Shown here piece after piece: positions 37,785 to 62,534 of a DNA stretch of 64,000 bases (positions within the stretch are counted from its first letter, which is position 1; every line of letters starts with the position of its first letter). The stretch spans positions 2,712,288 through 2,776,287 of the forward strand of contig NZ_CP094473.1 of NCBI RefSeq assembly GCF_023347535.1, given 5' to 3'. The notes beneath the pieces are model-generated. The model did not search any database, was not told where the DNA came from, and saw only the letters and a list, made by a program, of their open reading frames with translations. The position numbers and the translations under genes were made by a program. Source of the DNA: Faecalibacterium sp. HTF-F. GTDB taxonomy: Bacteria > Bacillota > Clostridia > Oscillospirales > Ruminococcaceae.

Positions 37785-38046
37785 ACGATTTAAAATTGCC
37801 GACGCGTCCGCTTTGGCAATATCAGCGGAAATATTATTTTATATATTCGCGTTTGTCGCGCTCTGCGGAGCGCTCCAAACGCATTTTCACGGGAAGGGGT
37901 CGTAACGGGAAACGGCATATGCTGACGCTGGCTCCCTGCGGGAGCATTCGCGTCAGCATGAAAACATGCTGTTGCCCTTACGTTTCGTCACGCAGCGACT
38001 TAAAACCGGCGGAACACAAAAAATCCTTTCGCTCTGCGCGGGAAGC
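37785..38046 (+). repeat. Family 1 structured element, copy a
   Basis: Interleaved pairs ATTGCC/GGCAAT and TCCGCT/AGCGGA, then a GCGTTTG...CAAACGC hairpin with a CTGCGG loop followed by TTTTCACGGG, then a GCTGACGC/GCGTCAGC stem, a CAGCATG/CATGCTG stem and a tail ending CTCTGCGCGGGAAG. It fills the gap between the PTS gene and gluQ, antisense to both. Confidence 0.75.
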
Positions 38047-38083
38047 CGCTTTTTCCCTATTATAGTTGCCCGTCCGCCAAAGG

Positions 38084-39628
38084 TCAACAGACCACCCTGT
38101 CCAGCCGCTGCTCCACCGCCTGCCGGACCTGTGGCGCACGGATGCCGAAAACGATCTGCACATTGCAGCCGTTTTGCACCACCCCGCTGCAGGGCAGCTC
38201 CCTCAGCGCCTGCTCCCGGACAAAGGCCGCATCCTGCACCGTGACCCGCAGGCGGGTAAAGCAGTTGTCCACCGTGCAGATGTTCTCCCGCCCGCCGAGG
38301 GCGGCGATGAGCTTTTCCACCCCGGCATCGTCCAGCGGTGCCGCTTCCGGCCGGACAGGCTCCTCCGGGCGTCGGCCCGGCGTGGGCAGGTCCAGCGCTT
38401 TGATAAGCGCCGTGAAGACCACAAAGTACACTGCGATCTGGGCAAGGCCCAGCAGATAGAGCACCGGATAATGGGTGCGGGCCACACCGGCAGAGAGGTT
38501 CATTGCCAGCGAACCCAGAAGGTTGGAGGTAAAGGCGGTCACATGGCACAGGTGCAGCAGCACGATGAACGCACCGGAAATGGCCGCGTGAGCCAGCCAC
38601 AGCACCGGTGCCGAAAAGCAGAACAGAAAATCCATCGGCTCGGTGATCGAGGCCAGCGATGCCGTGAAGGCCAGCGGCAGCAGCTGGGCCGCCGTTTTGC
38701 GGCGGCTGCCGCGCCGGGCACAGAAGATGAATGCCGCCGCAATGCCAAAGTAACCAAACGTCTTGGTAAAGCCGGTGTACATCCACACGATGCCATCGGA
38801 GAAGGGCAGGTTCAGATTGTACTCGGTCATCATGACCACATAGGCACCGGTATAGGTGACGCTGCCCACCGTGAGCTGACCGCCCAGCTGCGAGAACTGG
38901 AAGGGCATATACACCAGATGGTGCAGGCCTGTGGGGATGAGCAGCCGCTCCAGAAAGCCGTACAGGAACAGACCGATATTGCCGGACGCCGCAAGGAAGC
39001 CGGTAAGGGCAGCAATGGCCTTTTGCACCGGAGGCCAGACAAAACAGGCCCCAAAGCCCAGCACCGCCGCCAGCGCTGCCATGCAGGTAAAGGACCACCG
39101 CTCCCCGGAAAACACGCCGCCCAGGATCCCCCTGTGGGCCTTTTTACAGGTGTGGTCATACACATGGGCCGTCAGCAGGCCCAGCAGCACGCCGCCGAAT
39201 ACGCCGGTATCCACGGTCTGGATGCCCAGCACACTGGTCTGGCCTGCACCGTACAGGCCGGTCAGGCCGTCCGGCTGCGCCAGCAGGCCCAGCTCGGCAA
39301 GGGTGACATTGCCGGCGGTGAGATAGATGAAGTAGCTCATCAGCGCAATGAACGCCGCCTGATGCTTTTCCTGCTTTGCCAGCGACGCCGCAAGCCCGGT
39401 GCAGAACAGCACGCTGAGGTTGGAGATGACCGCCGACAGGCATTTGTAAAGGATCCTGCCCATCAGCCGCACCGGCCCCCACTGCAGCAGCGGCAGCGCC
39501 CCGGACAGCGCGGTGCTGGTGAGCAGGGCCCCTGCTGCCAGCAGCAGGCCCGCCGCCGAAAGATAGGTCAGCGGGGCCAGCATCGCGCGGGAAAACCGCT
39601 CCAGTGCGGCCGTGAACCGGTGTTTCAT
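38084..39628 (-). CDS. PTS transporter subunit IICB (glucose/maltose/N-acetylglucosamine family)
   Basis: This 514-residue fusion has an EIIC channel domain (residues 1-400, about ten helices, including GGVLLGLLTAHVYDHTCKKA and ITEPMDFLFCFSAPVLW, the latter with the conserved Glu-Pro) and a C-terminal EIIB domain. The phosphocysteine sits in ENICTVDNCFTRLRV near residue 456. It imports and phosphorylates a sugar, with phosphate passed from EIIA, which is not fused and not in this window. The family is that of glucose, maltose and N-acetylglucosamine carriers; the exact sugar is unclear. No catabolic enzyme is next to it. Confidence 0.92.
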   Translation of the reverse strand: MKHRFTAALERFSRAMLAPLTYLSAAGLLLAAGALLTSTALSGALPLLQWGPVRLMGRILYKCLSAVISNLSVLFCTGLAASLAKQEKHQAAFIALMSYFIYLTAGNVTLAELGLLAQPDGLTGLYGAGQTSVLGIQTVDTGVFGGVLLGLLTAHVYDHTCKKAHRGILGGVFSGERWSFTCMAALAAVLGFGACFVWPPVQKAIAALTGFLAASGNIGLFLYGFLERLLIPTGLHHLVYMPFQFSQLGGQLTVGSVTYTGAYVVMMTEYNLNLPFSDGIVWMYTGFTKTFGYFGIAAAFIFCARRGSRRKTAAQLLPLAFTASLASITEPMDFLFCFSAPVLWLAHAAISGAFIVLLHLCHVTAFTSNLLGSLAMNLSAGVARTHYPVLYLLGLAQIAVYFVVFTALIKALDLPTPGRRPEEPVRPEAAPLDDAGVEKLIAALGGRENICTVDNCFTRLRVTVQDAAFVREQALRELPCSGVVQNGCNVQIVFGIRAPQVRQAVEQRLDRVVC

Positions 39629-39786
39629 GGCGTTTCCTTCCTTTCCGGCCGCCGATGCGGCAAAGTCCTATCTGTAGTCAACCGATTTTTGCGGAAAATG
39701 TCAAGAATGCAAAGCTCCTAAAAATGCCGCCGTTCTTTGTGCAGGGTGCCGATTCCCCCACTTGAAATTCGTTCTGCCCCGTCCGA

Positions 39787-39815
39787 TTGACAACCGCTGC
39801 CGCAGAACGTATACT
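39787..39815 (+). promoter_or_regulatory. Promoter of lipoprotein gene at 39881
   Basis: Perfect TTGACA, 17-base spacer, TATACT. Confidence 0.8.
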
Positions 39816-39880
39816 TAGGGTGTATCGTTTTGAGGTGCTGCGGCCTCTGCGCCAAGGCACTGCTCATGGAGGACACTGCT

Positions 39881-40489
39881 ATGAAATCAAGATATACCCG
39901 CATCCTCTCTGTTCTGCTGTGCGCCGCACTGGCCTGCAGCATTCTGGCCGGCTGCAGCACTGCTGCCAGCAGCTCCGAAGTGCCCAGCTCTGCCAGCAGT
40001 TCTGCAAGCTCCGCTGCTTCCGGCGAAGTGCTGCCCGATTCCACCACCCGGGCCGACACCTCCGGGCTGAACCCCGGTGATTTTGACGAGAACTCCATCT
40101 TCTCCATCACCGGCACCTCTGCCGCCTTCGAGCCCTGCCTCGGCTGGGGCCCGGGCGTGTCCGGCTGCTCGCTGAAATCGGTGATCGCAGCGGCATCCCT
40201 GCTGCAGTGGGCGGAAGACGCCCGTCTTGCCTCCCGCACGCCGGATGCTGTGCAGGAAGCCTTCTACAACTGGTACGACACCCTGGACGCCGACGAGCAG
40301 GAGAGCTTTGCCGAGGCCTGGACGATGATCGAGCCGGACGCGCTGAGCCTGCTGAGCGACAAGGAGAGCATGACCGGCCGCATCGAGGACGCCGGCCTTG
40401 ACCCGGACGCTTTGCCCGGCTGCACCCTGAAGAACTGGCAGGCCCTGCAGACCGTGCTGGACGACTGCGTGCCCGCAGTGGGCCAGTGA
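39881..40489 (+). CDS. Predicted lipoprotein of unknown function
   Basis: This 202-residue protein starts MKSRYTRILSVLLCAALACS with lipobox ILAGC near residue 24, followed by a Ser/Ala-rich linker (about residues 28-52) typical of surface-displayed lipoproteins. The mature domain is acidic and helical (FYNWYDTLDADEQESFAEAW) and has several cysteines (FEPCLGW, SGCSLKS). It is not part of the tandem lipoprotein array at 19-23 kb: it lacks the YVAIAF tail. The ATG follows GGAGGACACTGCT. It has its own strong promoter and terminator. I do not recognise the family. Confidence 0.8.
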   Translation: MKSRYTRILSVLLCAALACSILAGCSTAASSSEVPSSASSSASSAASGEVLPDSTTRADTSGLNPGDFDENSIFSITGTSAAFEPCLGWGPGVSGCSLKSVIAAASLLQWAEDARLASRTPDAVQEAFYNWYDTLDADEQESFAEAWTMIEPDALSLLSDKESMTGRIEDAGLDPDALPGCTLKNWQALQTVLDDCVPAVGQ

Positions 40490-40498
40490 ACCCAACAT

Positions 40499-40536
40499 AA
40501 AAAGAAGCTGACCGGACTGGTCAGCTTCTTTTTGTT
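40499..40536 (+). terminator. Terminator of lipoprotein gene at 39881
   Basis: AAAAAGAAGCTGACC / GGTCAGCTTCTTTTT perfect stem. Confidence 0.85.
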
Positions 40537-40566
40537 TTTGCGAAAAGGCCGGGGCCGCCTGCGGCA

Positions 40567-41691
40567 TCAGACCTTCTTCAGCACATACTGGCGGGTGCCC
40601 ATGCCGATCTTTTCGGCCTGCTCCAGCGTGGCCTTCCACTCAATATTGGGGTTGGAATCCTTGAAGTTGTCATGGTGGCAGTTCCAGCCGGGCTTTGCAA
40701 GGTTCTGGCCCAGCTGGCTGTTCGGCAGCGGCTGTGCATTCAGGCAGGCGTCCGCGCAGGCCTGATCCAGCGCCACCGGGTCAAAGGACGCAAAGATGCC
40801 GATATCCGGCAGGATGGGAGCATCGTTCTCGCAGTGGCAGTCGCAGTTGGGGCTGATGTCCTGCACCAGAGAAATATGGAAGCAGGGACGACCGGCGCAC
40901 ACGGCAGCCGCATACTCGGCCATCTTGCGGTCCAGCATCTCATTGGCGCTGTCGCACTGGGAATAGATGGCGTCAAAGTTGCAGGCACCGATGCAGCGGC
41001 CGCAGCCCTTGCACTTGGTCTGGTCAATGACGGCCTTGTTGTTGGCATCGTAGGTGATGGCATCGGAGCCGCACTCCTTGGCGCAGCGGTGGCAGCCGCG
41101 GCACAGGCTCTGCTGCACCTCCGGGTGTCCGGCGGCGTGCTGTATCATCTTGCCCGCGCGGGAGCCGCAGCCCATGCCGATGTTCTTGAGAGTACCGCCG
41201 AAGCCGGTGGATTCGTGGCCCTTGAAATGGGTCAGGCTGATAAAGATATCCGCATCCATGATGGCGCGGCCGATCTTTGCCGTCTTGCAGTATTCGCCGT
41301 TCGGCACCGGCACCTCTGCCTCATCGGTGCCGCGCAGGCCGTCCGCAATGATGACCTGACAGCCGGTGGTCATGGGCCAGAAGCCGTTCAGCTGGGCACA
41401 GGTGAGGTGCTCCAGTGCGTTCTTGCGGCTGCCCGGGTACAGGGTGTTGCAGTCGGTCAGGAACGGCAGACCGCCCTGCTCCTTGCACAGGTCAGCCACC
41501 ACCTTGGCGTAGTTGGGGCGCAGGAATGCCAGATTGCCCAGCTCACCGAAATGCATCTTGATGGCAACGAATTTGCCATCCATATCAATGTCCTTGATGC
41601 CGGCAGCAATGCACACGCGGCGCAGCTTGTCCAGCAGGCTGGTGCCCACGGGACAGCGGAAATCTGTATAATAAACTTTGGATGCTTCCAT
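40567..41691 (-). CDS. DUF362-type iron-sulfur protein
   Basis: This 374-residue protein has a DUF362 domain (KLRRVCIAAGIKDIDMDGKF, and MHFGELGNLAFLRPNY near residue 50) and a two-cluster ferredoxin segment: LCRGCHRCAKEC and CKGCGRCIGACNFD at about residues 190-240, so it should bind two [4Fe-4S] clusters. It is common in anaerobes, where its electron partner is unknown. The ATG follows GGAGGAAACTGCT; 23 upstream codons are left out. There are no membrane helices. It stands alone between a terminator and a family 1 repeat. Confidence 0.87.
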   Translation of the reverse strand: MEASKVYYTDFRCPVGTSLLDKLRRVCIAAGIKDIDMDGKFVAIKMHFGELGNLAFLRPNYAKVVADLCKEQGGLPFLTDCNTLYPGSRKNALEHLTCAQLNGFWPMTTGCQVIIADGLRGTDEAEVPVPNGEYCKTAKIGRAIMDADIFISLTHFKGHESTGFGGTLKNIGMGCGSRAGKMIQHAAGHPEVQQSLCRGCHRCAKECGSDAITYDANNKAVIDQTKCKGCGRCIGACNFDAIYSQCDSANEMLDRKMAEYAAAVCAGRPCFHISLVQDISPNCDCHCENDAPILPDIGIFASFDPVALDQACADACLNAQPLPNSQLGQNLAKPGWNCHHDNFKDSNPNIEWKATLEQAEKIGMGTRQYVLKKV

Positions 41692-41818
41692 AGCAGTTTC
41701 CTCCATTTTGCTTTGTACGGCACGCTGCCGCATACTCTCTCTTTTACCAGTATAGCACAAAGTTTTTCAAAGAAAAAGAGCGGGATAAAGGCGGCGGGCA
41801 CCCCTCTGTGTCCCACGA

Positions 41819-42000
41819 TCAGAATGGCCTCCGCTGATCGCTCTGGCCATATTTAGCGGAACTATTATTTCATAAGGAAAGAAAGCCGGAAATCTGCGGA
41901 TTTCCGGCTTTCTTTTTTCACGGGAAAGAGCCGTGGCGGGCAGCGGCATCTTGCAAAAGGCATGAAACCTTAAACACGCGACTACGCTCTGTGCGGGAAG
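41819..42000 (+). repeat. Family 1 structured element, copy d
   Basis: Pairs ATGGCC/GGCCAT and CCGCT/AGCGG, then a GAAAGCCGGAAAT hairpin with a CTGCGG loop and T6 before CACGGG, then the TTTGCAAAA...CACGCGACTACGCTCTG tail that is also present in copy e. It occupies the gap between uppP and the DUF362 gene. Confidence 0.75.
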
Positions 42001-42009
42001 CATTCCAAA

Positions 42010-42840
42010 TCAGAAGATTGCCGTCACAGCCGCCACTGCCAGCACGATAATGCCCAGCACAATGCGGTAGACGCCAAAGAACTTGAAATCGTGGCGCTTC
42101 ACATAGTCCATCAGGAAGCGGATGGCGGCAAGGCTGACGCCAAAGGCCACCACACAGCCCACTGCCAGCACGGCCACCTCGGTGCCGGTCATCACGGAGC
42201 CGCTGACGGCGAACTTGACCACCTTGAGCAGGGATGCGCCCGCCATGACCGGGATGGCCAGATAGAAGGTGAACTCTGCCACGCAGGCGCGGGACAGGCC
42301 CAGCAGCAGGCCGCCCACGATGGTGGCACCGGAGCGGGAGGTGCCCGGGATGATGGCCAGACACTGCCACAGGCCGATGATGAGGGCATCGCGGTAGGTG
42401 ATCTGCTCCAGCTTTGTCACATGGGGCGTGATGCGGCGGTTTTCCACCACGAAGAACAGGATGCCGTACAGGATCAGCATGGCCGCAACGGTGATGTAAT
42501 TGTAAAAGTGATCTTCCATCCAGTTGTCCAGCGGGCTGATGACAAGCACCGGCAGGGTGGCGGCCACCACCTTGAACCACAGGCTCCAGACGCTGGGCTT
42601 GGAAATGACGCGGCCCCGCTTCATGCCAAAGGGCCACAGCTTGCCCCAGAACAGCACCACCACCGCCATGATGGCACCCAGCTGGATGACCACCCGGAAC
42701 ATGGACATGAACTCTTCACTTGCATTGAATTTGATGACCTGCTCCAGCAGGATCATATGACCGGTGGACGAGATGGGGAGCCATTCGGTAATGCCCTCCA
42801 CAATGCCCATCAGGATCGCTTTGATGATCTCGAAAAACGT
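42010..42840 (-). CDS. uppP: Undecaprenyl-diphosphatase (BacA/UppP)
   Basis: This integral membrane protein of about 276 residues dephosphorylates undecaprenyl diphosphate to recycle the cell-wall lipid carrier and gives bacitracin tolerance. Motifs are EGITEWLPISSTGH (about residues 15-28) and IPGTSRSGATI near residue 165. The start is unusual: the only well-placed ribosome-binding site (AAGGAGGGG) sits seven bases before an ACG codon at 42840, whose position matches the family's usual start. A TTG at 42861 lies upstream of the site and is less likely. Either ACG is used, or a single T-to-C change has altered an ATG. Confidence 0.88.
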   Translation of the reverse strand, partial: TFFEIIKAILMGIVEGITEWLPISSTGHMILLEQVIKFNASEEFMSMFRVVIQLGAIMAVVVLFWGKLWPFGMKRGRVISKPSVWSLWFKVVAATLPVLVISPLDNWMEDHFYNYITVAAMLILYGILFFVVENRRITPHVTKLEQITYRDALIIGLWQCLAIIPGTSRSGATIVGGLLLGLSRACVAEFTFYLAIPVMAGASLLKVVKFAVSGSVMTGTEVAVLAVGCVVAFGVSLAAIRFLMDYVKRHDFKFFGVYRIVLGIIVLAVAAVTAIF

Positions 42841-43088
42841 AAAGACCCCTCCTTGTGCCAAAGCACAGCGCTTATTTTGTACCAGTATACCATACTATGC
42901 CTTTCTGCGCACGCCGAATGCGAAAATTTTACCGGAAGGCCCTCTGCCGCTCTGCGGGCTGTAACTGCGCCCCAAAATGTGATATACTGATGCAAAGACC
43001 CTTTGTCTCCGGTTTTATCCGCAGAACCGAGCAGAAAGCAAGCACTGCTCGTATTTTTATCAGGTTATTTTACAATGAGGTGAACTGC

Positions 43089-43502
43089 ATGAACATTCTG
43101 GTGATCGGCTGCGATCAGGTGGGCGCTTCTCTGGTCCGTGATCTGGAGCACATCGGACACGATATCTCCCTGATCGAAAAAGACCCCGAGCAGCTCAAAC
43201 GGCTGGATGCTTTCGACGACTACCGCTTCCGTGGCACGGCACTGGTGGGCGACCCCACCGACCCGGATACCCTGCGGCAGGGCGGCATCGACAACTGCGA
43301 TGCCGTGGCCGCTGTGAGCGAGGACGACTCGGTGAACCTGATGGCGGCACAGATCGCAAAAAGCATCTTCCGCCGGGAAAAGGTCATCTGCCGCGTGTCC
43401 GACCCGCATCTGCAGGTGTTGTACCACAAGGCCTACGAGATCGACACCATCTGCCCCACCGTGCTCACCGAGCAATCGGTGTTCCGCGCACTGGCAAAGT
43501 AA
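43089..43502 (+). CDS. TrkA-N domain protein (potassium uptake regulator), first of pair
   Basis: This 137-residue single Rossmann (RCK/TrkA-N) domain starts MNILVIGCDQVGASLVRDLE, where GCDQVG is the NAD-binding loop, and continues FRGTALVGDPTDPDTLRQGG, the usual beta-alpha-beta segment. It regulates a potassium channel or transporter through nucleotide binding. It lacks the TrkA-C domain. The ATG follows GAGG. Fifteen bases separate it from a second, longer TrkA protein, so the two probably form one complex. The membrane subunit (TrkH/KtrB) is not adjacent. Confidence 0.85.
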   Translation: MNILVIGCDQVGASLVRDLEHIGHDISLIEKDPEQLKRLDAFDDYRFRGTALVGDPTDPDTLRQGGIDNCDAVAAVSEDDSVNLMAAQIAKSIFRREKVICRVSDPHLQVLYHKAYEIDTICPTVLTEQSVFRALAK

Positions 43503-43517
43503 AAGCGAGGGAAGCAT

Positions 43518-44183
43518 ATGAAAGTTTGTATTGCAGGCGGCGGCAAAGTGGGCATGTATCTGGCCCAGAGCCTGCTGGCCCACCACCACAAAGTGACCAT
43601 CATCGAGCCGCAGGAGATGCTCTGCCGCACGCTGGCGGATTCGCTGGATATCCCGGTGATCTGCGGCGATGCCATCAGCTTTGACACCATGCGCACGGCC
43701 GACGTAGCCAGCTGCGACGCCTTTGTGGCCGTGACCGGTGCGGACGAGAACAACCTTGTTGCCTGCCAGATCGCAAAGCGGGAGTTTGGCGTGAACCGCA
43801 CCGTGGCCCGGGCCTCCAACCCCAAGAACCGGGAGCTGCTGCACACGCTGGGCGTGGATACCGTGGTGTGCGGCACCGACAACCTGAGCCACATCCTCGA
43901 GCGCGAGATCGAGACCGACACCATCCGTCAGCTGCTGTCGCTGGGCGGCGGCACGGCCAGCCTGAACGAGATCCTGCTGCCGGAGAACTTCCAGTTTGCA
44001 GGGCAGGCGGTCAAGGACATCCCCATGCCGGGCGACGTCATTCTGGTGTGCATCACCCGCGATGCGGAGTTTATCATCCCCCACGGCAACACCACCCTGC
44101 TGCCATGGGACCGCATCCTCTGCCTGACCCAGGATGACACCCTGCACCTGCTGATGGACGCATGGGGCCTTTCCGGCAAATGA
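43518..44183 (+). CDS. trkA: TrkA-like potassium uptake regulator (TrkA-N plus TrkA-C)
   Basis: This 221-residue protein contains an RCK domain (MKVCIAGGGKVGMYLAQSLL with the GGGKVG nucleotide loop, residues 1-130) and a C-terminal TrkA-C domain (FAGQAVKDIPMPGDVILVCI, then REAEFIIPHGNTTLLPWDRI-like strands, residues 150-215). Its stop overlaps the next gene's start (ATGA). Together with the preceding single-domain protein it looks like a split version of the two-repeat TrkA of proteobacteria. The two membrane proteins downstream are co-transcribed but are not recognisable Trk channels. Confidence 0.88.
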   Translation: MKVCIAGGGKVGMYLAQSLLAHHHKVTIIEPQEMLCRTLADSLDIPVICGDAISFDTMRTADVASCDAFVAVTGADENNLVACQIAKREFGVNRTVARASNPKNRELLHTLGVDTVVCGTDNLSHILEREIETDTIRQLLSLGGGTASLNEILLPENFQFAGQAVKDIPMPGDVILVCITRDAEFIIPHGNTTLLPWDRILCLTQDDTLHLLMDAWGLSGK

Positions 44184-44611
44184 CCGAGGGGGATCTGCTG
44201 CGCACCGCGCTGATCATCCCGCCCAGGGGCCGGGCCGTTGTGTGCAGCTGGGCCAGTGTGCCCGGTGTGTTCTGCGCGCCCTTCGTGTTCTGGCAGAGCC
44301 GCTTTGCCGGATGTATTTTCTGCGCCCTGTGGGCGGGCCTGGTCTTCGCTGTGTGGGCACGGGCCTGCAGCTTTGCAGCACTGCTCACGGCACAGGATCT
44401 GGCTGTGCAGGCAGGCATCGCCTTTGCCGTCACGCGGCAGCTGCCCCGCCGGGCCGTGACCGGCGTGTGGGCCCTGCGCACGCCGCTTCTGTGGCTGGCG
44501 GGGTGCAGCGTGCTGGTGGTGCGGGGCCCGGGCGTACAGCTGTTCCTGCCGGGCGTGGACGCCCTGCAGGCGCAGGCCCTTGCCGCTGTGCTGATGGAGG
44601 ACACGCCATGA
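44180..44611 (+). CDS. Membrane protein of the YdbS-like kind, small partner
   Basis: This 143-residue protein starts MTEGDLLRTALIIPPRGRAV with the ATG overlapping the trkA stop. Two hydrophobic helices (about residues 25-70) precede a beta-prone domain with AIAFAVTRQLPRRAVTGVWA and LVVRGPGVQLFLPGVDA, the layout of small PH-like (bPH2) membrane proteins such as YdbS. It overlaps the following gene in ATGA form as well. The pair of small and large PH-like proteins is common in Firmicutes, with no firm function; coupling to trkA may be just operon history. Confidence 0.6.
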   Translation: MTEGDLLRTALIIPPRGRAVVCSWASVPGVFCAPFVFWQSRFAGCIFCALWAGLVFAVWARACSFAALLTAQDLAVQAGIAFAVTRQLPRRAVTGVWALRTPLLWLAGCSVLVVRGPGVQLFLPGVDALQAQALAAVLMEDTP

Positions 44612-45960
44612 CCGAACGCAGCTTTCACCCGTTTGCGGTGCTGCATTTTCTGCGCAAGACCATCCTGCTCTATCTGCTGCCGCTTTTGCAGGTGCTGTTT
44701 GCCCGCAACTGGGCGGCGCTGCGCACGGCTCTGGTGCAGGGCGCGGCACTGCTGGCGGTGATTGCTGCCGTGAGTGCTGCCGTGCTCCATACAAGCCGCT
44801 GGCAGGTGGATGAACACGGGACCCTGCGGGTGTGCTGGCGGCTGGGTGTGCGGCTGGACCGCTGCCTGAAGGCCGGGCAGCTGGCAGCGGTCACGCTGGA
44901 ACGGCCCCTGCTTTACCGGCTGGCCGGTGCAAGCCGGGTGGTGCTGTACCCTGCCGGGCAAAAGCGCACCCTGACCCTGCTTTTGAACGCACAGGACGCA
45001 CAGCTTCTGGCCGACTGCATGATGCCGCGCCGGGACGCCGTGGCCCACACCCCGCGCGGCGGCGAAAAGCTGGCCTTTGCGGTGCTGGGTGCCAACGGCC
45101 TTTCCACCCTTGCCCTTCTGGCGCTGGCCGTCAGGCAGAGCAGGCCCTATGTGCCGGACGCACAGACGGCCGCCTTTGCCCACCTGAACCAGCTGGCAGC
45201 GTGGGCGGCACGCTGGCTGCCCATGGGCACGGCATGGCTGCTGGTGCTGGGCGGCGTGCTGTTCTGCGCAAGCCTTGCGCGCAGCGCGGCCCATGCAGCC
45301 CACTACACCGTGTGGCGCACCGAGAGCCATCTTGGCAGCCGGGGCGGCTTTGTGCACCGGTACGAAATGCGCCTTGCGCTGGAGCACCTGAGCTATGCAG
45401 ACCTGCGCCGCTCGCCTGCCACCCGGGCGCTGGGCTGCTGTCCGGTGTTCGTCACGGCAGGCAGCTGCCGACCCGAGATCCCGCTTCTGGTCTGGCGGGA
45501 GGACAGTCCCTTTCTGCAGGAGCTGCTGCCCGGCTTTGCCCTGCCGCCCAAAGCGCCGGTGGACACAGCAGGCCGCAGCATCCCGGCGTATTTTCTGCCT
45601 GCCGGCATCCCCTGCGGGCTGTGTCTGCTGCTGACGGCGGTATCCCGCTACACCCTGCCCGCCCTCACGGTGCCGCTGCTGGTGGTCACCGCCGTGTTTG
45701 CGGCCCTGCTTGCAGGTGCGGCTGTCGGCTACCGCAGGGAGGGCATCTGGCTGCAGGACGGGCATCTGACCCTGCGCCGGCAGCGCGGCTTTCACCTGCA
45801 CGAGATCTGTGTGCTGTGCCCTGCACCGGCCCTGACGGCCCTGCGCTCCCCCTGGGCAGCGGCGGTGGGGCGCACCGATCTTACCCTCACCTTTCCGGGC
45901 GGGGTGAAGTGCAAGGTGCGCAGCGTGAAGTGCAGTGAATTGCCTTTTTTGCTTTTCTGA
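44608..45960 (+). CDS. PH-domain (YdbT-like) membrane protein, large partner
   Basis: This 450-residue protein has paired hydrophobic helices at about residues 35-60, 160-175, 195-220 and 335-380, alternating with beta-rich cytoplasmic domains (DEHGTLRVCWRLGVRLDRCL; REGIWLQDGHLTLRRQRGFH), the bPH2 repeat arrangement of YdbT-type proteins. It overlaps the smaller partner by ATGA. The C-terminus (KCKVRSVKCSELPFLLF) looks like a degenerate extension, perhaps from a short duplication. It is the last gene of the trkA operon. Function is unknown. Confidence 0.6.
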   Translation: MTERSFHPFAVLHFLRKTILLYLLPLLQVLFARNWAALRTALVQGAALLAVIAAVSAAVLHTSRWQVDEHGTLRVCWRLGVRLDRCLKAGQLAAVTLERPLLYRLAGASRVVLYPAGQKRTLTLLLNAQDAQLLADCMMPRRDAVAHTPRGGEKLAFAVLGANGLSTLALLALAVRQSRPYVPDAQTAAFAHLNQLAAWAARWLPMGTAWLLVLGGVLFCASLARSAAHAAHYTVWRTESHLGSRGGFVHRYEMRLALEHLSYADLRRSPATRALGCCPVFVTAGSCRPEIPLLVWREDSPFLQELLPGFALPPKAPVDTAGRSIPAYFLPAGIPCGLCLLLTAVSRYTLPALTVPLLVVTAVFAALLAGAAVGYRREGIWLQDGHLTLRRQRGFHLHEICVLCPAPALTALRSPWAAAVGRTDLTLTFPGGVKCKVRSVKCSELPFLLF

Positions 45961-45981
45961 AACTGTAAGGAGTCTTTTTCT

Positions 45982-46638
45982 GTGATAAAAACTGTATTAT
46001 TCGATCTGGACGGCACCCTTCTGAACACCATCGACGACCTTTCCGATGCGGGAAACTGGGTATGTGAACAGCACGGCTGGCCCACCTTTACGGTGGAACA
46101 GTTCAAGCACATGGTGGGCAACGGCATCCCGAAGCTGGTGGAGCGCTTCTCGCCGGAGAATGCCCGCACGCCGGAGCAGCTGGCGGCCACGCTGGCTGAG
46201 TTCACCGCCCGGTACGACGCCCACAAGGAGGACAAGACGGCCCCCTATCCCGGCATCCCGGAGCTGCTGGACGCGCTGCGGGCAAAAGGCATCCAGTGCG
46301 CAGTGTTCTCCAACAAGGCCGACCCTCTGTGCGGCAAGATCATCGCCCACTATTTCGGCACCGGCCGCTTTGATGCTGTGCGCGGCAGCAGGCCCGGCGT
46401 GCCCACCAAGCCGGACCCCGCCGGGCTCTATGCGCTGATGGACGAGATCGGTGCGGACCGCTCTGCCACCCTGTTCGTGGGCGACAGCGATGTGGACATC
46501 CTCACCGGGCACAATGCCGGACTGCCCGCCATGGGCGCGCTGTGGGGCTTCCGGGGCCGTGCAGAGCTGACCGCTGCCGGTGCGGATGCACTGGCGGCAG
46601 TGCCGGAGGATATTTTTACCTATATCCAGAAGAGTTGA
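45982..46638 (+). CDS. HAD-family phosphatase (phosphoglycolate phosphatase-like)
   Basis: This 218-residue HAD hydrolase has motif I LFDLDGTLLNT (residues 6-16) with both catalytic Asp residues, motif II VFSNKAD, motif III Lys in GVPTKPDP and motif IV VGDSDVDIL near residue 165. A helical cap domain lies at residues 18-85. The start is GTG after AAGGAG. Its closest functional group is the Gph/PGP-like enzymes, which also act on other small phosphate esters. It starts 21 bases after the membrane protein gene and may be in the same transcript. A family 1 element begins at its stop codon. Confidence 0.87.
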   Translation: MIKTVLFDLDGTLLNTIDDLSDAGNWVCEQHGWPTFTVEQFKHMVGNGIPKLVERFSPENARTPEQLAATLAEFTARYDAHKEDKTAPYPGIPELLDALRAKGIQCAVFSNKADPLCGKIIAHYFGTGRFDAVRGSRPGVPTKPDPAGLYALMDEIGADRSATLFVGDSDVDILTGHNAGLPAMGALWGFRGRAELTAAGADALAAVPEDIFTYIQKS

Positions 46639-46819
46639 CGATTTAAAATTGTCTCCGCTTCGCTCTGACAATATCAGCGGAAAAATCATTTTTGATATTG
46701 CAAATCCGGAATGACTGCGGTCATTCCGGATTTGCTTTTTCACGGGAAGGGGTCGTGGCGGGAAGCGGCATCTGCTGCTGTCGGCCTGTTTCCGCCGCTG
46801 GCGGCGGTCAGCTCAGCTG
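46637..46819 (+). repeat. Family 1 structured element, copy b
   Basis: Pairs ATTGTC/GACAAT and TCCGCT/AGCGGA, then the hairpin GCAAATCCGGAATGA...TCATTCCGGATTTGC around a CTGCGG loop, T5 and CACGGG, and a GTCGGCC...GGCGG stem. Its first base overlaps the stop region of the phosphatase gene, so it could serve as that gene's terminator. Confidence 0.78.
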
Positions 46820-46962
46820 CAATTCCCGTATGGGTTGCATGAAACAGCAACCACATTAGACATTCCTAGCCGTTGGGACCCGCGGGCTAACCAAAGCCCC
46901 ACCGGGGCTTTGGTTGCGGTGCTGCGCACCGCCGCCCTGTTCGATTCCCGTATGGGTCAAAT
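46820..46962. other. tRNA-like remnant and three-hairpin structure
   Basis: Two copies of ATTCCCGTATGGGT resemble the T-arm and 3' end of the adjacent tRNA-Glu, but on the other strand. Between them GGGC/GCCC closes over two perfect hairpins, CCAAAGCCCC/GGGGCTTTGG and GCGGTGC/GCACCGC, giving a possible three-way junction. No complete tRNA can be folded. Confidence 0.45.
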
Positions 46963-46998
46963 TAAAAACGCCCTTGCGCAATGCGCAAAGGCGTTTTT
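46963..46998 (-). terminator. Terminator of tRNA operon
   Basis: AAAAACGCC-TTTGCGCA / TGCGCAAGGGCGTTTTT, just after tRNA-Glu on the minus strand. Confidence 0.85.
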
Positions 46999-46999
46999 A

Positions 47000-47071
47000 T
47001 GACCCGTACGGGAATCGAACCCATGTTACAGCCGTGAAAGGGCCGTGTCTTAACCGCTTGACCAACGGGCC
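47000..47071 (-). tRNA. tRNA-Glu (anticodon TTC)
   Basis: A 72-base cloverleaf: acceptor GGCCCGT paired with ACGGGTC plus discriminator A, anticodon loop CTTTCAC giving TTC, and T-arm ATGGG-TTCGATT-CCCGT. CCA is not encoded. Confidence 0.95.
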
Positions 47072-47163
47072 TTAGAAATACAGAGCTTCGCTAAAACCTC
47101 CGACATCCATCGCCCACTACTGCGGACGACCGTCCCCCTAACCTTAGCGAAACTCTGTAAAAG
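47072..47163 (-). other. Inter-tRNA spacer with long stem
   Basis: ACAGAGTTTCGCTAA at one end pairs with TTAGCGAAGCTCTGT at the other (15 bp with a single G-T). They enclose about 50 bases with a small internal hairpin. It lies between tRNA-Met and tRNA-Glu in the same transcript. Confidence 0.55.
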
Positions 47164-47240
47164 TGGTAGCGGTAACTGGATTTGAACCGGTGACACTTCG
47201 GGTATGAACCGAATGCTCTAGCCAACTGAGCTATACCGCC
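47164..47240 (-). tRNA. tRNA-Met (anticodon CAT)
   Basis: A 77-base gene including an encoded CCA: acceptor GGCGGTA with TACCGCT, anticodon stem TTCGG/CCGAA around TTCATAC, T-arm CCGG-TTCAAAT-CCAG. It lacks the C1-A72 mismatch of initiator tRNA, so it is elongator Met or a CAT tRNA-Ile. Confidence 0.95.
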
Positions 47241-47274
47241 ACATATTGTTTGTGCACTTGAACAGTGCTCTATT

Positions 47275-47303
47275 ATTATATCCATAGATAGGCCTTTTGT
47301 CAA
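47275..47303 (-). promoter_or_regulatory. Consensus promoter of tRNA operon
   Basis: Perfect TTGACA, 17-base spacer and perfect TATAAT on the minus strand, about 28 bases before tRNA-Met. Confidence 0.9.
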
Positions 47304-47410
47304 CACATATTTTCAAAAAATTTTGCGTTTTTTCAATATCTCGATTTTATTCACGCAGCTTCGTTGAAATATTGCATTTTCCTTCATTTTTGCAGAGGTT
47401 TGCGGCAAAA

Positions 47411-47587
47411 AACGATTTGAAATGGCCTCCGCTGTGCTCTGGCCATAATCAGCGGAAAGATTATTTTTATTTGTAGTTCCGAAACACCTGCGGGCGTTTC
47501 GGAACTACTTTTTCACGGGAGGGGCCGTAAAGGAAAACGGCATTTGCAGCGCCGCTTTCTGCGAAAGCGCGGCGCTGCGGTCAGCAT
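47411..47587 (+). repeat. Family 1 structured element, copy c
   Basis: Pairs ATGGCC/GGCCAT and TCCGCT/AGCGGA, then the hairpin GTAGTTCCGAAAC...GTTTCGGAACTAC, T5 and CACGGG, then a GCAGCGCCGC/GCGGCGCTGC stem. It ends four bases before a family 2 copy. Confidence 0.78.
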
Positions 47588-47591
47588 CCTC

Positions 47592-47662
47592 GCCCTCTCC
47601 GTCACCTGCGGTGACACCTCTCCCTTTGGGAGAGCTGCCGAGCAAAGCAAGGCTGAGAGGGC
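47592..47662. repeat. Family 2 palindromic repeat, short copy E
   Basis: GCCCTCTCCGTCACC ... GGCTGAGAGGGC with one central CTCTCCCTTTGGGAGAG hairpin; about half the usual length. Confidence 0.7.
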
Positions 47663-47680
47663 AAGCACCCTTCCCACGCA

Positions 47681-47719
47681 AAAAAGCACCGCTTTCCGTG
47701 AGGAAAGCGGTGCTTTTTT
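47681..47719 (-). terminator. Terminator of serS
   Basis: AAAAAAGCACCGCTTTCC / GGAAAGCGGTGCTTTTTT after the serS stop. Confidence 0.85.
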
Positions 47720-47759
47720 CAACCCTTTTCTGTCCGGATGTGGAAAACCCGGTGCAGTT

Positions 47760-49091
47760 TTAGTTCTTCTTGTGGGTGGGGACCATGACCTTCAGGCCGC
47801 CCATATACGGCTGCAGCACTTCGGGAATGGTCACGGTGCCGTCGGCCTGCAGGTGGTTCTCCAGGAAGGCGATCAGCATACGCGGAGGTGCCACGCAGGT
47901 GTTGTTCAGGGTGTGGGCCAGATAGGTCTTGCCGTCCTTGCCCTTCACGCGGATGTGCAGGCGGCGTGCCTGTGCATCGCCCAAATTGGAGCAGGAGCAG
48001 ACCTCGAAGTACTTCTGCTGGCGGGGGCTCCAAGCCTCGATATCGCAGCTCTTCACCTTCAGGTCGGCCAGGTCGCCGGAGCAGCAGTTCAGCTGACGCA
48101 CCGGGATCTCCATGCTGCGGAACAGTTCCACAGAGTTCTTCCACAGCTTCTCGTACCAGTCAGCGCTCTCGTCGGGGCGGCAGACCACGATCATTTCCTG
48201 CTTCTCGAACTGGTGGATGCGGTAAATGCCGCGCTCCTCGATGCCGTGAGCGCCCTTTTCCTTGCGGAAGCAGGGGCTGTAGGAGGTCAGGGTCAGGGGC
48301 AGAGTGGCCTCGTCCAGAGTCTGGTCGATGAAGCGGCCGATCATGGTGTGCTCGCTGGTGCCGATCAGGTACAGGTCCTCACCCTCGATCTTATACATCA
48401 TGGCATCCATTTCCGGGAAGGACATGACGCCCTGCACCACGTTGCCGTGCATCATGAAGGGAGGGATCACGTAGGTGAAGCCCTTATCGATCATAAAGTC
48501 GCGGGCATAGGCCAGCACAGCCTCGTGCAGGCGGGCGATGTTGCCCAGCAGATAGTAGAAACCGTTGCCGGCCACGCGGCCTGCGGCGTCCATATCGATG
48601 CCGTCGAAGCTCTCCATGATCTCGGTGTGGTACGGGATGGGGAAATCGGGGACCACAGGCTCACCAAAGCGCTGTGCTTCCACGTTGTAGGTATCATCCG
48701 GGCCGATGGGCACGCTGGGATCGATCATCTGCGGGATGGTGTACATGATCTCCTGAATGCGTGCGGACAGGGTCTCTTCTTCCTTTTCCAGCTCAGCCAT
48801 CTTGTCGGCGTCGGCCTTGACGGCGGCATTGTTGGCATCGATCTGAGCCTGCAGCTCAGCCTTCTGTGCCTCATCCGTGCACTTCTTCAGCTGGCCGAAC
48901 AGGGGGCCGTTGGCCTTGCTCAGCTTGTTGCGGGCAGCCTTGAGGGCTTCCACTTCCTTCAGGCATGCGCGGTACTTGGCATCCTTCTCGATGACCTCGT
49001 CCACCAGCGGGAGCTTTGCATCCTGAAACTTCTTCTTGATGTTTTCCTTGACAGCGTCCGGATTTTCACGGACAAATTTGATATCAAGCAT
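47760..49091 (-). CDS. serS: Seryl-tRNA synthetase
   Basis: This 443-residue class II synthetase charges tRNA-Ser. The N-terminal coiled-coil arm (residues 25-110, AELQAQIDANNAAVKADADK) recognises the long variable arm. Motif 2 is FRKEKGAHGIEERGIYRIHQ and motif 3 contains NNTCVAPPRMLIAFLE. No T-box leader is seen in the 90 bases upstream. The gene starts with MLDIKFVRENPDAVKENIKK, a textbook SerS N-terminus. It stands after parB in the origin-proximal block and ends at its own terminator. Confidence 0.96.
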   Translation of the reverse strand: MLDIKFVRENPDAVKENIKKKFQDAKLPLVDEVIEKDAKYRACLKEVEALKAARNKLSKANGPLFGQLKKCTDEAQKAELQAQIDANNAAVKADADKMAELEKEEETLSARIQEIMYTIPQMIDPSVPIGPDDTYNVEAQRFGEPVVPDFPIPYHTEIMESFDGIDMDAAGRVAGNGFYYLLGNIARLHEAVLAYARDFMIDKGFTYVIPPFMMHGNVVQGVMSFPEMDAMMYKIEGEDLYLIGTSEHTMIGRFIDQTLDEATLPLTLTSYSPCFRKEKGAHGIEERGIYRIHQFEKQEMIVVCRPDESADWYEKLWKNSVELFRSMEIPVRQLNCCSGDLADLKVKSCDIEAWSPRQQKYFEVCSCSNLGDAQARRLHIRVKGKDGKTYLAHTLNNTCVAPPRMLIAFLENHLQADGTVTIPEVLQPYMGGLKVMVPTHKKN

Positions 49092-56046: not shown

Positions 56047-56049
56047 GGA

Positions 56050-57588: not shown

Positions 57589-57626
57589 AAGGGGCTTTCC
57601 GTCCCAACACGGAAAGCCCCTTTTTA
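57589..57626 (-). terminator. Terminator of the 5'-nucleotidase-like gene
   Basis: AAAAAGGGGCTTTCCGTG / CGGAAAGCCCCTTTTTT, just after the stop at 57641. Confidence 0.85.
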
Positions 57627-57640
57627 CAGGAAACTGATTT

Positions 57641-59452: not shown

Positions 59453-59756
59453 AGTTGATTACCTCTCTTTTCATCATTCTGTCTGTTCTTCACGAACAGA
59501 GCGCTCTTGACTACAGTATAAATCCTTGACCAATTGTTTTACAATTGCCATTTGAGAGAAAGATTTCGGCAAAAAACAGGCAGTTTCTCCAAATTTTGAG
59601 AAGAATGACTTTTGGCAGGCTCCGTATACCGCAACGGCTGCCCGACCCAAAACCACCTTGGCGTCAGTTTTGGGTAAAATCCTTTTTTGCGTGAAAAAAG
59701 GTCTCCGGAAAATCCGCAGATTTTCCGGAGACCCTGATTTCAAAAGTAATTCCGTA
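59453..59756. other. Gap between nucleotidase gene and jag
   Basis: It holds the jag terminator and the nucleotidase upstream region. I see no gene. Confidence 0.5.
59698..59733 (-). terminator. Terminator of the jag/yidC transcript
   Basis: GGTCTCCGGAAAAT / ATTTTCCGGAGACC around a CTGCGG loop, then TTTTTTCACG on the minus strand. Loop and tail match the central hairpin of family 1 elements, here on the opposite strand. Confidence 0.8.
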
Positions 59757-60911
59757 TTACAGCTCGATCTTGCCAAAGCTGAAATCGGCAAAATCATCCA
59801 CCCGCTCGGTGCGCTTGGGTGCTACCGGTGCGGCATTCTCGGCATCGCGGGGTGCATAGGTGCGCTCCGGCACGCCGGAGGGACGGGGGCCGCGGGGTGC
59901 ACCACTGCGGCTGCCGCGGTAGCCGCCACGGCTGCCATTGCGGTCGCCGTGATCGGAACGGTTTCCGCCGCGATAACCGCCGCTGCGCGGACCGCCGGGA
60001 CGACGGCCATTGCCGCGTCCGCCGCGGGGACGGCGCTCGCCGTAGGTGTTCTCGGTCTGTGCATCGGGTGCGGTGGAGTAGATGACCACACGGCGGTCAC
60101 GGCCTTCGCCCTTGCTCTCGCTGCGCACGCCCTCCATCTTGCTGATGGCAGAGTGGATGATGCGGCGCTCGTAGGGGTTCATGGGCTCCATGGCAAAGCT
60201 GCGGCCGGTCTTGCGCACCTTGGCACCAATGCGCTGTGCCAGTGCGGTCAGGTCGCTCTCGCGCTTGTCGCGGTAGCCGGCAACGTCCAGACCCAGCTTG
60301 ATGTAATCGCCCTCCAGACGGTTTGCCACAAGGCTTGCCAGATAGGACAGGCTCTCCATGGTCTCGCCGCGGCGGCCGATGAGGGCGCCCAGCTTTTCAC
60401 CGTCCAGACGGATGATGGTGGCCTCGCCCTTCTGCACGGCGCTGAAGGAGACGTTCTCCACGCCCATCAGGGCAATGACCTCACGCAGGTAGTCCACTGC
60501 GGCCTTGACCTTGGCGTTTTCCTCAATGTTGATGGGCTCCTCGGTCTCCTCTTCCTCGGCAGCAGGCTGCTGCACTGCGGCAGCTTCCACAGCGGGCGCA
60601 GCAGGCTCCTCGGCCTTGGCTTCCGGCTCTGCCGGTGCAGCGGGTGCTTCCACTGCAGGAGCAGGCGCGGCCTTCTCCTGAACAGGAGCCTTCTTTTCCT
60701 CAACGGCGGGTGCTGCCGGAGCGTCCGGCTCCTCCACGCTCACGCACACCTTGGCGGGGGTGAGCTTCAGGCCCAGAAAACCAGTCTTCTGGGGCATTTC
60801 CAGCACTTCGCAGCTGACATTCAGATCATCGGCCTGCACGCCCAGCAGGGCACAGGCTTTTGCGCGGGCTTCATCGACCGTTTTGCCGGTCGCTTCCTGC
60901 TTACGGATCAT
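59757..60911 (-). CDS. jag: Jag/KhpB RNA-binding protein with RGG-rich tail
   Basis: This 384-residue protein has the Jag N-terminal domain (TGKTVDEARAKACALLGVQA, residues 8-27), an Ala/Glu/Pro-rich linker (about 65-125), a KH domain with LIGRRGETMESLSYLASLV near 185 and an R3H domain ending MNPYERRIIHSAIS (near 260). It binds RNA and affects cell-wall growth and sporulation in other Firmicutes. Unusually, 90 residues follow R3H and contain many RGG/GRG repeats (GGRGNGRRPGGPRSGGYRGG) before an acidic end. It is co-transcribed with yidC, 17 bases apart, as in most Firmicutes. Confidence 0.92.
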   Translation of the reverse strand: MIRKQEATGKTVDEARAKACALLGVQADDLNVSCEVLEMPQKTGFLGLKLTPAKVCVSVEEPDAPAAPAVEEKKAPVQEKAAPAPAVEAPAAPAEPEAKAEEPAAPAVEAAAVQQPAAEEEETEEPINIEENAKVKAAVDYLREVIALMGVENVSFSAVQKGEATIIRLDGEKLGALIGRRGETMESLSYLASLVANRLEGDYIKLGLDVAGYRDKRESDLTALAQRIGAKVRKTGRSFAMEPMNPYERRIIHSAISKMEGVRSESKGEGRDRRVVIYSTAPDAQTENTYGERRPRGGRGNGRRPGGPRSGGYRGGNRSDHGDRNGSRGGYRGSRSGAPRGPRPSGVPERTYAPRDAENAAPVAPKRTERVDDFADFSFGKIEL

Positions 60912-60928
60912 AACCGTTCTCCTCCTTC

Positions 60929-62002
60929 TTATTCTTTATCCTGCTTGTTCAGCTCGCTCAGCGGCACGGTGCGCTCGTCCTTGTAGCGCTCCTCGTCCAG
61001 CTTGCGGGCATACTCCAGCCGGCGCTTGTTCATCTCGCTGGCGGAAAGGTTCTTTTCCGTGGTCTCGCCGGTCTTGGGATCGGTGACCTTGACGGTGGTG
61101 TTCTTCACACCGCGCTTTTCCTGCTTTTTCTTTTCTGCGATCTGCGCTTCGATCTCCTTGCGCATCTTATCGGGGTCGTACACCTTGCGCATGACCTGGG
61201 TCTGCGCGGTCATCACGATGTTGGAAATGACGTAGTACAGAGAGAATGCCAGAGGATAGGTGAAGCAGAAGAACAGGTACATCAGCGGCATCATATACAT
61301 GGTCACCTTCATGCTGCCCTGCATCTGCTGGCCGCTGGCCTTCATGCTGATGTGGGTGGACAGGAGCATGGTGATGACCGACAGCAGCGGCAGCACGATG
61401 TCCAGCGACAGGCCCAGCTTGGGCACGCGGGTCAGGTCGATGCCGAGGAAGGTCATATGACGGCTGAACTCGGTGACAGTCGCGATCTGCTCCGGGGTAA
61501 AGCAGGCAGCCAGACTGCTGTTGCCTGCCACCAGCTGAGAAATAATGGTGGTATCGCGGGTGATGGCGGTAAAGGCGACACCGGAGGCAGTCAGGGCCTC
61601 ACCGGCAGCGGTCAGGGCAGCAGCGCTGATGTGGAAGATGCGCTCCAGCGGATTGTACACGACGCCGATAACGCCAAACATGACCAGGAAGTTCAGCAGC
61701 ATGGGCACACAGCCTGCGGTGGGGTTATAGCCGTAGTTCTGCTGCAGCTTGAGCATTTCTTCCTGCTGCTTTTCAGGCTTGTCCTTGTACTTGTTCTGGA
61801 TCTCCATCATCATGGGCTGGAAGGCCGACATTTTAGCCATGCTCTTCTGCTGGCTCAGCTGCAGAGGGATCTTGACGATGTTGATGAGCAGCGTGAAGAT
61901 GATGATGTCCCAGCCATAGCTCGGGAGCAGCTTGTAGATCCACTCCATGACATAGCCGAGAGGACCGCTCAGGATGTAAAAGAAGTTCATACCTTTGTCC
62001 AT
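60929..62002 (-). CDS. yidC: Membrane protein insertase YidC/Oxa1
   Basis: This 357-residue insertase places proteins in the membrane with or without Sec. Helices lie at about residues 10-50, 95-120, 195-215 and 225-260, with the cytoplasmic coiled hairpin KSMAKMSAFQPMMMEIQNKY after helix 1. A positively charged groove residue is expected in helix 1; here it is the Lys of INIVKIPLQLSQQ, where Bacillus proteins usually have Arg. It lacks a lipoprotein signal, and its C-terminal tail is long and basic (about residues 280-357). It follows yidD only after a large repeat (62085-62534). Confidence 0.93.
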   Translation of the reverse strand: MDKGMNFFYILSGPLGYVMEWIYKLLPSYGWDIIIFTLLINIVKIPLQLSQQKSMAKMSAFQPMMMEIQNKYKDKPEKQQEEMLKLQQNYGYNPTAGCVPMLLNFLVMFGVIGVVYNPLERIFHISAAALTAAGEALTASGVAFTAITRDTTIISQLVAGNSSLAACFTPEQIATVTEFSRHMTFLGIDLTRVPKLGLSLDIVLPLLSVITMLLSTHISMKASGQQMQGSMKVTMYMMPLMYLFFCFTYPLAFSLYYVISNIVMTAQTQVMRKVYDPDKMRKEIEAQIAEKKKQEKRGVKNTTVKVTDPKTGETTEKNLSASEMNKRRLEYARKLDEERYKDERTVPLSELNKQDKE

Positions 62003-62084
62003 TCTGCCCCGTCTGTGGCACGGGACTTGTTATTTTTTATCGTAGGACACGCTGCCCACAGTGCACCGCGTCACAAGAAGCTTT

Positions 62085-62534
62085 ATGATCTAAAATGCCC
62101 TCCGCGTTGCTCTGGGCATATTCAGCGGAAAAATTATTTTATATTTGCGTTTGTCGCGGCCTGTGGGCCGCTCCAAACGCATTTTCACGGGAAAGGTCGT
62201 AACGAAAAACAGCATTTGCTGCCGCTGGCTCCCTGCGGGAGCATTCACGTCAGCATGAAAACATGCTGTTGCCCTTACGTTTCGTCGCGCAGCGACTTAA
62301 AACCGGCGGAACACAAAAAATCCTCTAGCGCAGCGGCTTGGATTTTTTGTATGGAGCCCAACAGCTTTGGGGTTACTAGGGGCGAGCAGCCCCTAGTTCG
62401 TGCCTCCCGCGCCTCGAAAGTAGCGGGTGCTTTTCTGGTTCTCTTTTGGCACGCAAAAGAGAACATACCCGGCGGTGCTGCATTTTGCAAAAACCATGAA
62501 ACTTTAAACACGCGACTACGCTCTGCGCAGGAAG
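62085..62534 (+). repeat. Family 1 structured element, long copy e
   Basis: Pairs ATGCCC/GGGCAT and CCGC/GCGG, then GCGTTTG...CAAACGC around CTGTGG, then the GCTGCCGC...GTCAGC and CAGCATG/CATGCTG stems shared with copy a. A 170-base insert (with GGGGCGAGCAGCCCC and CTCTTTTG...CAAAAGAG palindromes) follows, then the tail of copy d. It splits yidD from yidC. Confidence 0.75.

Follow-up and report, generated by a model that had tools for sequence, protein, structure and literature searches.

A high-copy palindromic repeat in part of Faecalibacterium, probably a DNA element carrying a portable intrinsic terminator

Within a 64,000-nucleotide stretch of the Faecalibacterium sp. HTF-F chromosome (contig NZ_CP094473.1, positions 2,712,288 to 2,776,287 of the forward strand; hereafter the window), five segments starting at positions 37785, 41819, 46637, 47411 and 62085 share a common frame in which paired bases change together, which raises the question of whether they represent a conserved RNA or something else. 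The initial annotation, made from the sequence alone, had described them as a structured element with compensatory base changes. All five can indeed be aligned across the whole frame (157 columns, mean column identity of 74%); they are separate intergenic repeats, and the span from 37785 to 62534 is not a single feature. With a probability of roughly two in three we consider them copies of a high-copy palindromic DNA repeat, present in part of Faecalibacterium, which resembles REPINs (doublets of repetitive extragenic palindromic (REP) sequences) and miniature inverted-repeat transposable elements (MITEs) and carries a portable intrinsic terminator. The copy plan is modular and consists of an ACGATTT end, a bulged 6-bp hairpin (arm 1), an A/T spacer, a near-perfect hairpin, a T-run and a tail led by CACGGG; written in full it reads ACGATTTnnA, arm 1 (6 pairs), loop, arm 1', ATTCAGCGGAAA, A/T spacer, long hairpin, T-run and CACGGGAGGGGTCGTAACGGGAAACGGCAT. 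Arm 1 reads, as described before, ATTGCC/GGCAAT, ATTGTC/GACAAT, ATGGCC/GGCCAT (twice) and ATGCCC/GGGCAT, and the central hairpins differ between the copies yet are almost perfectly paired; their loop is CTGCGG, or CTGTGG in copy 5, and a T-run precedes CACGGG.

The five copies are members of a large interspersed family of more than 100 short intergenic repeats found in part of Faecalibacterium. Its abundance is far above chance: a 19-base pattern from the tail matches the own genome (G000) 29 times with at most one mismatch, and the same pattern read backwards gives no match. A covariance model (R1), as had been suggested in the initial annotation, was built from 26 copies, one hairpin pair being set wrong and another lost in it. 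It yields at least 138 matches in G000 at E ≤ 0.1, a lower bound as 150 of 1150 candidates were scored; 135 of them cover the model, and the last few are weak, the weakest possibly being chance matches or plain terminators. The matches are divided into 76 on the plus and 62 on the minus strand, so that the uniform plus orientation noted for the five copies is true of the window but only a local feature. Among 31 Faecalibacterium genomes searched at E ≤ 1e-6, eight hold between at least 74 and at least 103 matches (lower bounds, since at most 103 candidates were scored per genome), two hold one or two and 21 hold none; a looser search adds one or two weak matches each in G005, G016 and G019. 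A focused search of the sister genome G010 gave 85 matches at E ≤ 0.01. In a sample of 148 genomes taken at family level, the own genome alone has a match at E ≤ 1e-6, and weak R1 matches outside the genus (G030 and G034, E of about 1e-4 to 1e-3) were discarded, the frame not being visible in them by eye. The statement that no named family corresponds to the element is borne out by Rfam, which at gathering score over the whole window gives no match over the five copies and at E values up to 5, for 37000-48000 only, gives sub-threshold matches over copies, none of them convincing. Searches of the openly licensed PubMed Central literature aimed at such a Faecalibacterium repeat or RNA turned up no title or abstract giving an account of it.

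The arrangement of the copies argues for a palindromic element. Of 34 pairs of neighbouring matches less than 1 kb apart, 30 are oriented tail-to-tail, three ++ and one -+. The total length amounts to 232-327 bp in 24 of the 29 tail-to-tail pairs less than 500 bp apart, hereafter termed twins, which run from head through spacer, 16-bp hairpin, T-run and tail into the same modules in reverse and fill the intergenic gap. Opposed heads stand at the ends of most of the 29 twins, which hence possess terminal inverted repeats, and in the 12 twins with all modules the two partners resemble each other no more closely than copies taken at random. According to gene calls by a simple codon-score script ignoring tRNAs, ten twins lie in convergent, 16 in co-directional and three in divergent gaps, compared with a background of 109 convergent, 295 co-directional and 108 divergent gaps in the fetched stretches, which had been chosen for holding copies. 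Because of this distribution, twins are not simply the paired terminators of convergent genes; with 16 of 29 between co-directional genes that explanation was rejected. Where a sense gene lies upstream of a head, the head starts no more than 15 nt past the called stop codon in 58 of 82 cases, small overlaps included. No sense bias is seen among the unpaired copies in co-directional gaps, of which 22 are sense and 19 antisense. Genome G007, which has almost no copies, holds one twin whose hairpins and flank are the same as at 1279408-1279648 of G000; this suggests a chromosome piece transferred between species.

The central hairpin is shown to have the form of an intrinsic terminator. Its uninterrupted stem, G·T allowed, measures exactly 16 bp in 71 of 126 family hairpins, which is the modal length, and the loop is C-TGCG-G in 106 of them. 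Of 102 canonical hairpins (12 TC/TC-type and non-canonical ones set aside), 81 pair without a fault over 15 bp; Watson-Crick pairs make up 1495 of the 1530, the remainder comprising 15 G·T, 12 A·C and eight others. TTTT follows within 8 nt of the stem in 104 of 114 canonical hairpins. The CTGCGG-type loop marks the family, for CTGCGG, sought anywhere in the hairpin, occurs in only three of 210 other terminator-like intergenic hairpins. Judged from its sequence, the hairpin would end transcription in the head-to-tail direction. A GTTTGTCGC-type scaffold is encountered in three states: 12 copies have a TC/TC mismatch, 2671342 and 618437 are paired with the left-arm letters, and 2599255 is paired with those of the right arm. 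Paired versions carrying the letters of either arm are what arm-to-arm copying would give. PMC8794818 describes template switching as a process from which perfect stems and multibase compensatory changes arise.

Heads and hairpins reassort between copies. In a Mantel-type comparison of distances between modules, covering the 87 of 138 copies with all modules, head and hairpin distances are uncorrelated (r = 0.008, p = 0.43 for the outer and r = -0.034, p = 0.77 for the inner half of the hairpin), while the within-module controls reach r = 0.20 for the head and r = 0.30 for the hairpin. Where copies have identical hairpins, their heads mostly differ as much as those of any two copies. Orthologous sites provide a second view: for 23 of 30 G000 matches a two-sided ortholog spanning less than 6 kb was present in G010 (seven were dropped), and 11 of these sites have a match in G010. 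At two of them, 2750073 (copy 1) and 2663369, G010 has the same head but a different hairpin; at 2546116 both head and hairpin differ, and at 2560745 G010 has a head without hairpin. As to the window copies, copies 3, 4 and 5 are absent from the corresponding G010 sites, copy 2 is present with the same hairpin and copy 1 with another one.

The clearest case is the copy 1 site. Here G000, G046 and G010 share the head, apart from one base; G000 and G046 share the hairpin GCGTTTGTCGCGCTC..., interrupted by an insert in G046, and G010 has the hairpin GTAACTCCGAAACGAC... instead. The sequence following the tail is common to G010 and G046 and different in G000. Since G010 and G046 share this sequence and all three genomes share the head, the hairpin alone seems to have changed in the G010 line, as far as three genomes allow this to be read. 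In G041 the site carries another head and another hairpin, and in the other nine genomes compared no copy is seen by eye in the stretch inspected. The insert in the G046 hairpin (L246) is a repeat of about 90 nt flanked by an 11-base duplication, TTCGCGTTTGT, and at the 2663369 site in G010 and G046 the hairpin holds an insert similar to it. Because head and hairpin distances are uncorrelated and hairpins are replaced with their flanks kept at fixed sites, part of what had been read as compensatory change looks like the result of hairpin exchange and arm-to-arm copying. The covariation itself is real, but stepwise mutation accounts for only a part of it, given that hairpins at orthologous sites are mostly either nearly the same or replaced.

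On this reading each copy would be a portable one-way terminator acting from head to tail and tolerated by genes at their 3' ends. Hairpins may be exchanged by short gene conversion or recombination via the conserved A/T spacer and the TTTTCACGGG flanks, and stems may be kept perfect by arm-to-arm copying (template switching) together with selection for termination. A more far-reaching proposal, which we advance tentatively and with the odds somewhat against it, is that the family forms a dispersed library of more than 100 interchangeable terminator cassettes whose conserved heads and tails act as sockets; perfectly paired 16-bp hairpins would be swapped between these sockets through localized conversion, and template switching from arm to arm would refresh them. 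If so, the hairpin population would evolve in whole steps and produce covariation without stepwise compensatory mutation. Covariation is widely taken to prove that an RNA is conserved; here a strong signal arises in a dispersed DNA repeat, the stems of which appear to undergo exchange and correction as blocks. With about 100 copies per genome as natural replicates, and this in several sister species, the family offers a means to gauge swaps against template switching and stepwise mutation. It may also contribute transcription terminators on a large scale to an abundant gut commensal.

Several observations weigh against an interpretation as a mobile palindromic repeat with exchangeable hairpins. 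There is weak linkage between hairpin and tail (r of about 0.10) and between spacer and outer hairpin (r = 0.085), and copies with the same hairpin are sometimes similar in the head too (52523 and 228954). At seven of the 11 shared G010 sites the hairpin is the same or nearly so, replacement hence being the minority; one of these seven, 2771938, is a weak match resembling an ordinary terminator. Tail-to-tail pairs less than 1 kb apart hold only 60 of the 138 matches, leaving 78 outside. Target duplication is not in excess of shuffled partners in the 29 twins, and comparisons of filled and empty sites reveal no clean target duplication. The closest two of the 121 of 138 G000 matches compared share only 89.8% identity over at least 110 nt, so that recent jumping is not demonstrated. 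Nor does the family track the three transposase families tested. PF01797 (Y1/RAYT, RAYT denoting the REP-associated tyrosine transposase) has no match in G006, a genome with at least 103 repeat matches; IS91 (PF04986), with matches in one of 17 genomes, and IS110 (PF02371), missing in six of eight genomes rich in copies, show no association and were rejected as movers.

Y1/RAYT was likewise rejected as the mover. The single PF01797 match in G000 has no family motif within its 3.3-kb locus, and two of three Y1 matches in G010 adjoin copies, which by eye are the halves of one split twin. At these two loci (L211 and L214; G010 2319064 and 2362663) the twin appears to have been split by an IS200-like Y1 gene together with about 43 kb of other DNA; its intact ortholog looks to be G000 2182978-2183256. 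Carriage by phages was also considered, as 13 records labelled as phage match the repeat. The two of them examined, both Unverified ‘Bacteriophage sp.’ entries, look like bacterial DNA because MT836242.1 (L272) is collinear with the chromosome of the window over 4.8 kb at 91% and MT839212.1 (L273) contains ABC transporter genes; phage carriage was rejected on this basis. Plasmid records gave no match to the repeat, and viral contigs gave none for one exact 22-base pattern.

How, then, does an interpretation as RNA fare? It would hold the copies to be a cis- or trans-acting structured RNA, a small RNA or riboswitch-like, with a 5' pseudoknot and dispersed as RNA genes. Support for it comes from the head, where covariation was analysed for the 92 of 138 matches with sequence anchors, aligned by sequence alone and compared with 2000 shuffles. 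The arm-1 columns 13/31 and 14/30 beat all shuffles in paired cells and in changes on both sides, as does a nested pair inside the arm-1 loop, column 20/24, which is C-G 76, T-A nine, T-G five and C-A one times. The other four arm-1 pairs remain within the shuffles, showing little variation or being blurred by alignment gaps. The five copies moreover have fold energies below those of dinucleotide shuffles (z of -2.5 to -5.3), and the loop of the family hairpin, which we take to be of the UNCG type, also counts in favour of a structured RNA. The minimum-energy RNA folds of lone copies contain the central hairpin in five of five cases, but the arm-1 hairpin in copies 1 and 5 only. The second, interleaved pair TCCGCT/AGCGGA, stated to be constant in the initial annotation, is not so: copy 5 has TCCGCG, and TCCGCT of copy 1 sits at a shifted place. 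In the set of 92 heads all six interleaved pairs stay within the shuffle range, and the 16 heads carrying A at column 41 keep the G at column 19; the 5' module is therefore read as a bulged hairpin, and the pseudoknot was rejected. In some heads (G000 329220, 694311, 571919 and 2496218; G010 1576538) arm 1 is opened by an insert of about 120 nt which resembles another genus-wide repeat.

Wobble pairs could in principle indicate an RNA strand, yet G·T is not favoured over A·C in the family hairpins (15 to 12). The 210 control hairpins give a similar split of 75 to 57, so that the test does not separate RNA from DNA and decides little. By inference, the T-run would moreover end an RNA ahead of the conserved tail. 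A larger alignment thus retains covariation in two arm-1 pairs, the nested pair and the central hairpin, as expected of an element selected for its fold, but a single functional RNA is not favoured because copies occur on both strands without sense bias, form inverted twins, are restricted to part of a genus, shuffle their parts and give no support for the interleaved pair. We regard it as an unlikely explanation, albeit the best placed of the alternatives.

Ranking behind it, at low probability, is the view that the copies are ordinary intrinsic terminators of the neighbouring genes, their shared frame being that of a genus-typical terminator. Hairpin and T-run, as well as the frequent position of heads right behind stop codons, would agree with this, and loops of the CTGCGG type also turn up in a few of the ordinary terminator-like hairpins that the genus has. 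At the G010 site corresponding to copy 3, an ordinary terminator-like hairpin takes the place of the copy. In the metagenomic record MT836242, however, copy 3 directly follows the same stop codon and is itself followed by a terminator-like hairpin which is present in G010 without the copy; the copy hence lies between the stop codon and a terminator-like hairpin common to both. The head and tail are conserved beyond what any terminator would explain, twins also occupy the 16 co-directional gaps, and 19 of the 41 unpaired copies in such gaps, like copies 1, 2 and 5 with respect to both their neighbour genes, are antisense. The rarity of CTGCGG in the other hairpins speaks against a genus-typical form as well.

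Least probable is that the repeats are the ends of non-autonomous transposons or insertion sequences, i.e. true MITEs whose full-length form is lost or unsampled, since the inverted terminal heads, the defined left boundary, the presence/absence differences between sister species and the long form, in which five of 74 unpaired copies have a second right end, are offset by the missing target duplication, by transposase families that do not follow the repeat and by the called genes within eight spaced tail-to-tail pairs of G000 (150-8000 bases apart), which by eye are not transposase-like, their proteins not having been searched.

In the window, all five copies are on the plus strand. Copy 1 comprises a head with CGATTT end, arm 1 ATTGCC/GGCAAT and AGCGGAA (37786..37829), a central hairpin of the GTTTGTCGC type with a TC/TC internal loop and the loop CTGCGG (37849..37882), the tail TTTTCACGGGAAGGGGTCGTAACGGGAAACGGCAT (37884..37918) and the right-end motif CGCTCTGCGCGGGAAG of the long form (38030..38045). 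Copy 2 consists of a head with arm 1 ATGGCC/GGCCAT (41815..41861), the hairpin (41880..41913), T-run and tail (41914..41949) and the right-end motif GACTACGCTCTGTGCGGGAAG (41980..42000). The head of copy 3, with arm 1 ATTGTC/GACAAT (46639..46682), directly adjoins the stop codon of a HAD-hydrolase-like gene (45982-46638) and is followed by a hairpin with a 16-bp stem (46700..46735) and by T-run and tail (46736..46771). Copy 4 has a head with arm 1 ATGGCC/GGCCAT (47413..47457), a 16-bp stem with one A·C mismatch (47473..47508) and T-run and tail at 47509..47543. In copy 5, a head with arm 1 ATGCCC/GGGCAT (62086..62131) precedes a GTTTGTCGC-type hairpin with the loop CTGTGG (62146..62181), T-run and tail (62182..62215) and the right-end motif GCTCTGCGCAGGAAG (62520..62534); it is flanked by a YidD-family gene and a 60KD_IMP (YidC-type) gene. 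Copies 1, 2 and 5 extend to the right-end motif, which ends at 38045, 42000 and 62534; present in so few unpaired copies, it was rejected as the general end of the family.

The window contains further repeats and RNA matches. A second repeat family (CCCTCTCAGTCA ... GACTGAGAGGG hairpins; D4, D8, D15) is found at 20642, 26100, 30242, 51285 and 55871 and elsewhere, often directly behind or in place of the repeats described here, orthologous sites included. On the minus strand, 28885-28937 matches the Streptococcus small RNA family SpF59 (ldcC) with 65.5 bits, above the Rfam gathering score, and 13708-13779 matches the skipping-rope RNA of Rfam with 54 bits. Between 19649 and 23284 five repeats of about 83 nt (D2, D3, D10), spaced by about 0.8-1.2 kb and with terminator-like GCCCCGGAG hairpins nearby, perhaps reflect a run of paralogous genes.

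MITEs and the palindromic repeats ERIC, RUP and BOX are short, non-coding, intergenic and lineage-restricted and have inverted ends. The Faecalibacterium repeat shares the terminal inverted repeats of MITEs, but a target-site duplication was not found in its 29 twins, and in contrast to all of these its internal hairpin is hypervariable yet nearly always paired. With intrinsic (Rho-independent) terminators it has the stable hairpin followed by a T-run in common, whereas its copies share loop, head and tail and are dispersed in both orientations to genes. Closest are REPINs and the GTAG REP doublets, which, as described in parts of PMC3116915 and PMC3733652, likewise are high-copy extragenic imperfect palindromes in inverted doublets, located near gene 3' ends and mostly between convergent and co-directional genes; singlets are read as relics there, and compensatory changes were noted by the REPIN authors (PMC3116915, in part). 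A GTAG motif is absent before the stem, the majority of 83 heads reading ACGATTT (GTAG was not looked for at the tail end), and a RAYT flanked by the repeats, as in REPINs, was not found, the G000 locus being without the motif and G006 without a PF01797 match. The CGTC REPs, again according to portions of PMC3733652, are likewise palindromic extragenic dimers with no known transposase and with stems starting with A-T pairs; their stem, however, measures 8-9 bp, compared with 6 bp, a bulge and about 2 bp in a long composite unit here. Instead of the CGTC tag the Faecalibacterium heads have ACG at -9 to -7 before the aligned AAT, and their ACGA, several bases away from the stem, is only partly conserved. 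Because neither the GTAG motif, the RAYT nor the stem and tag of the CGTC REPs are found in it, the repeat is not filed as a member of either group, although it works like REPINs. It differs from them by a longer composite unit with a second, terminator-like hairpin of 16 bp which reassorts with the head, and it is this composite unit with a terminator-like hairpin of its own, together with the reassortment of that hairpin, that is new.

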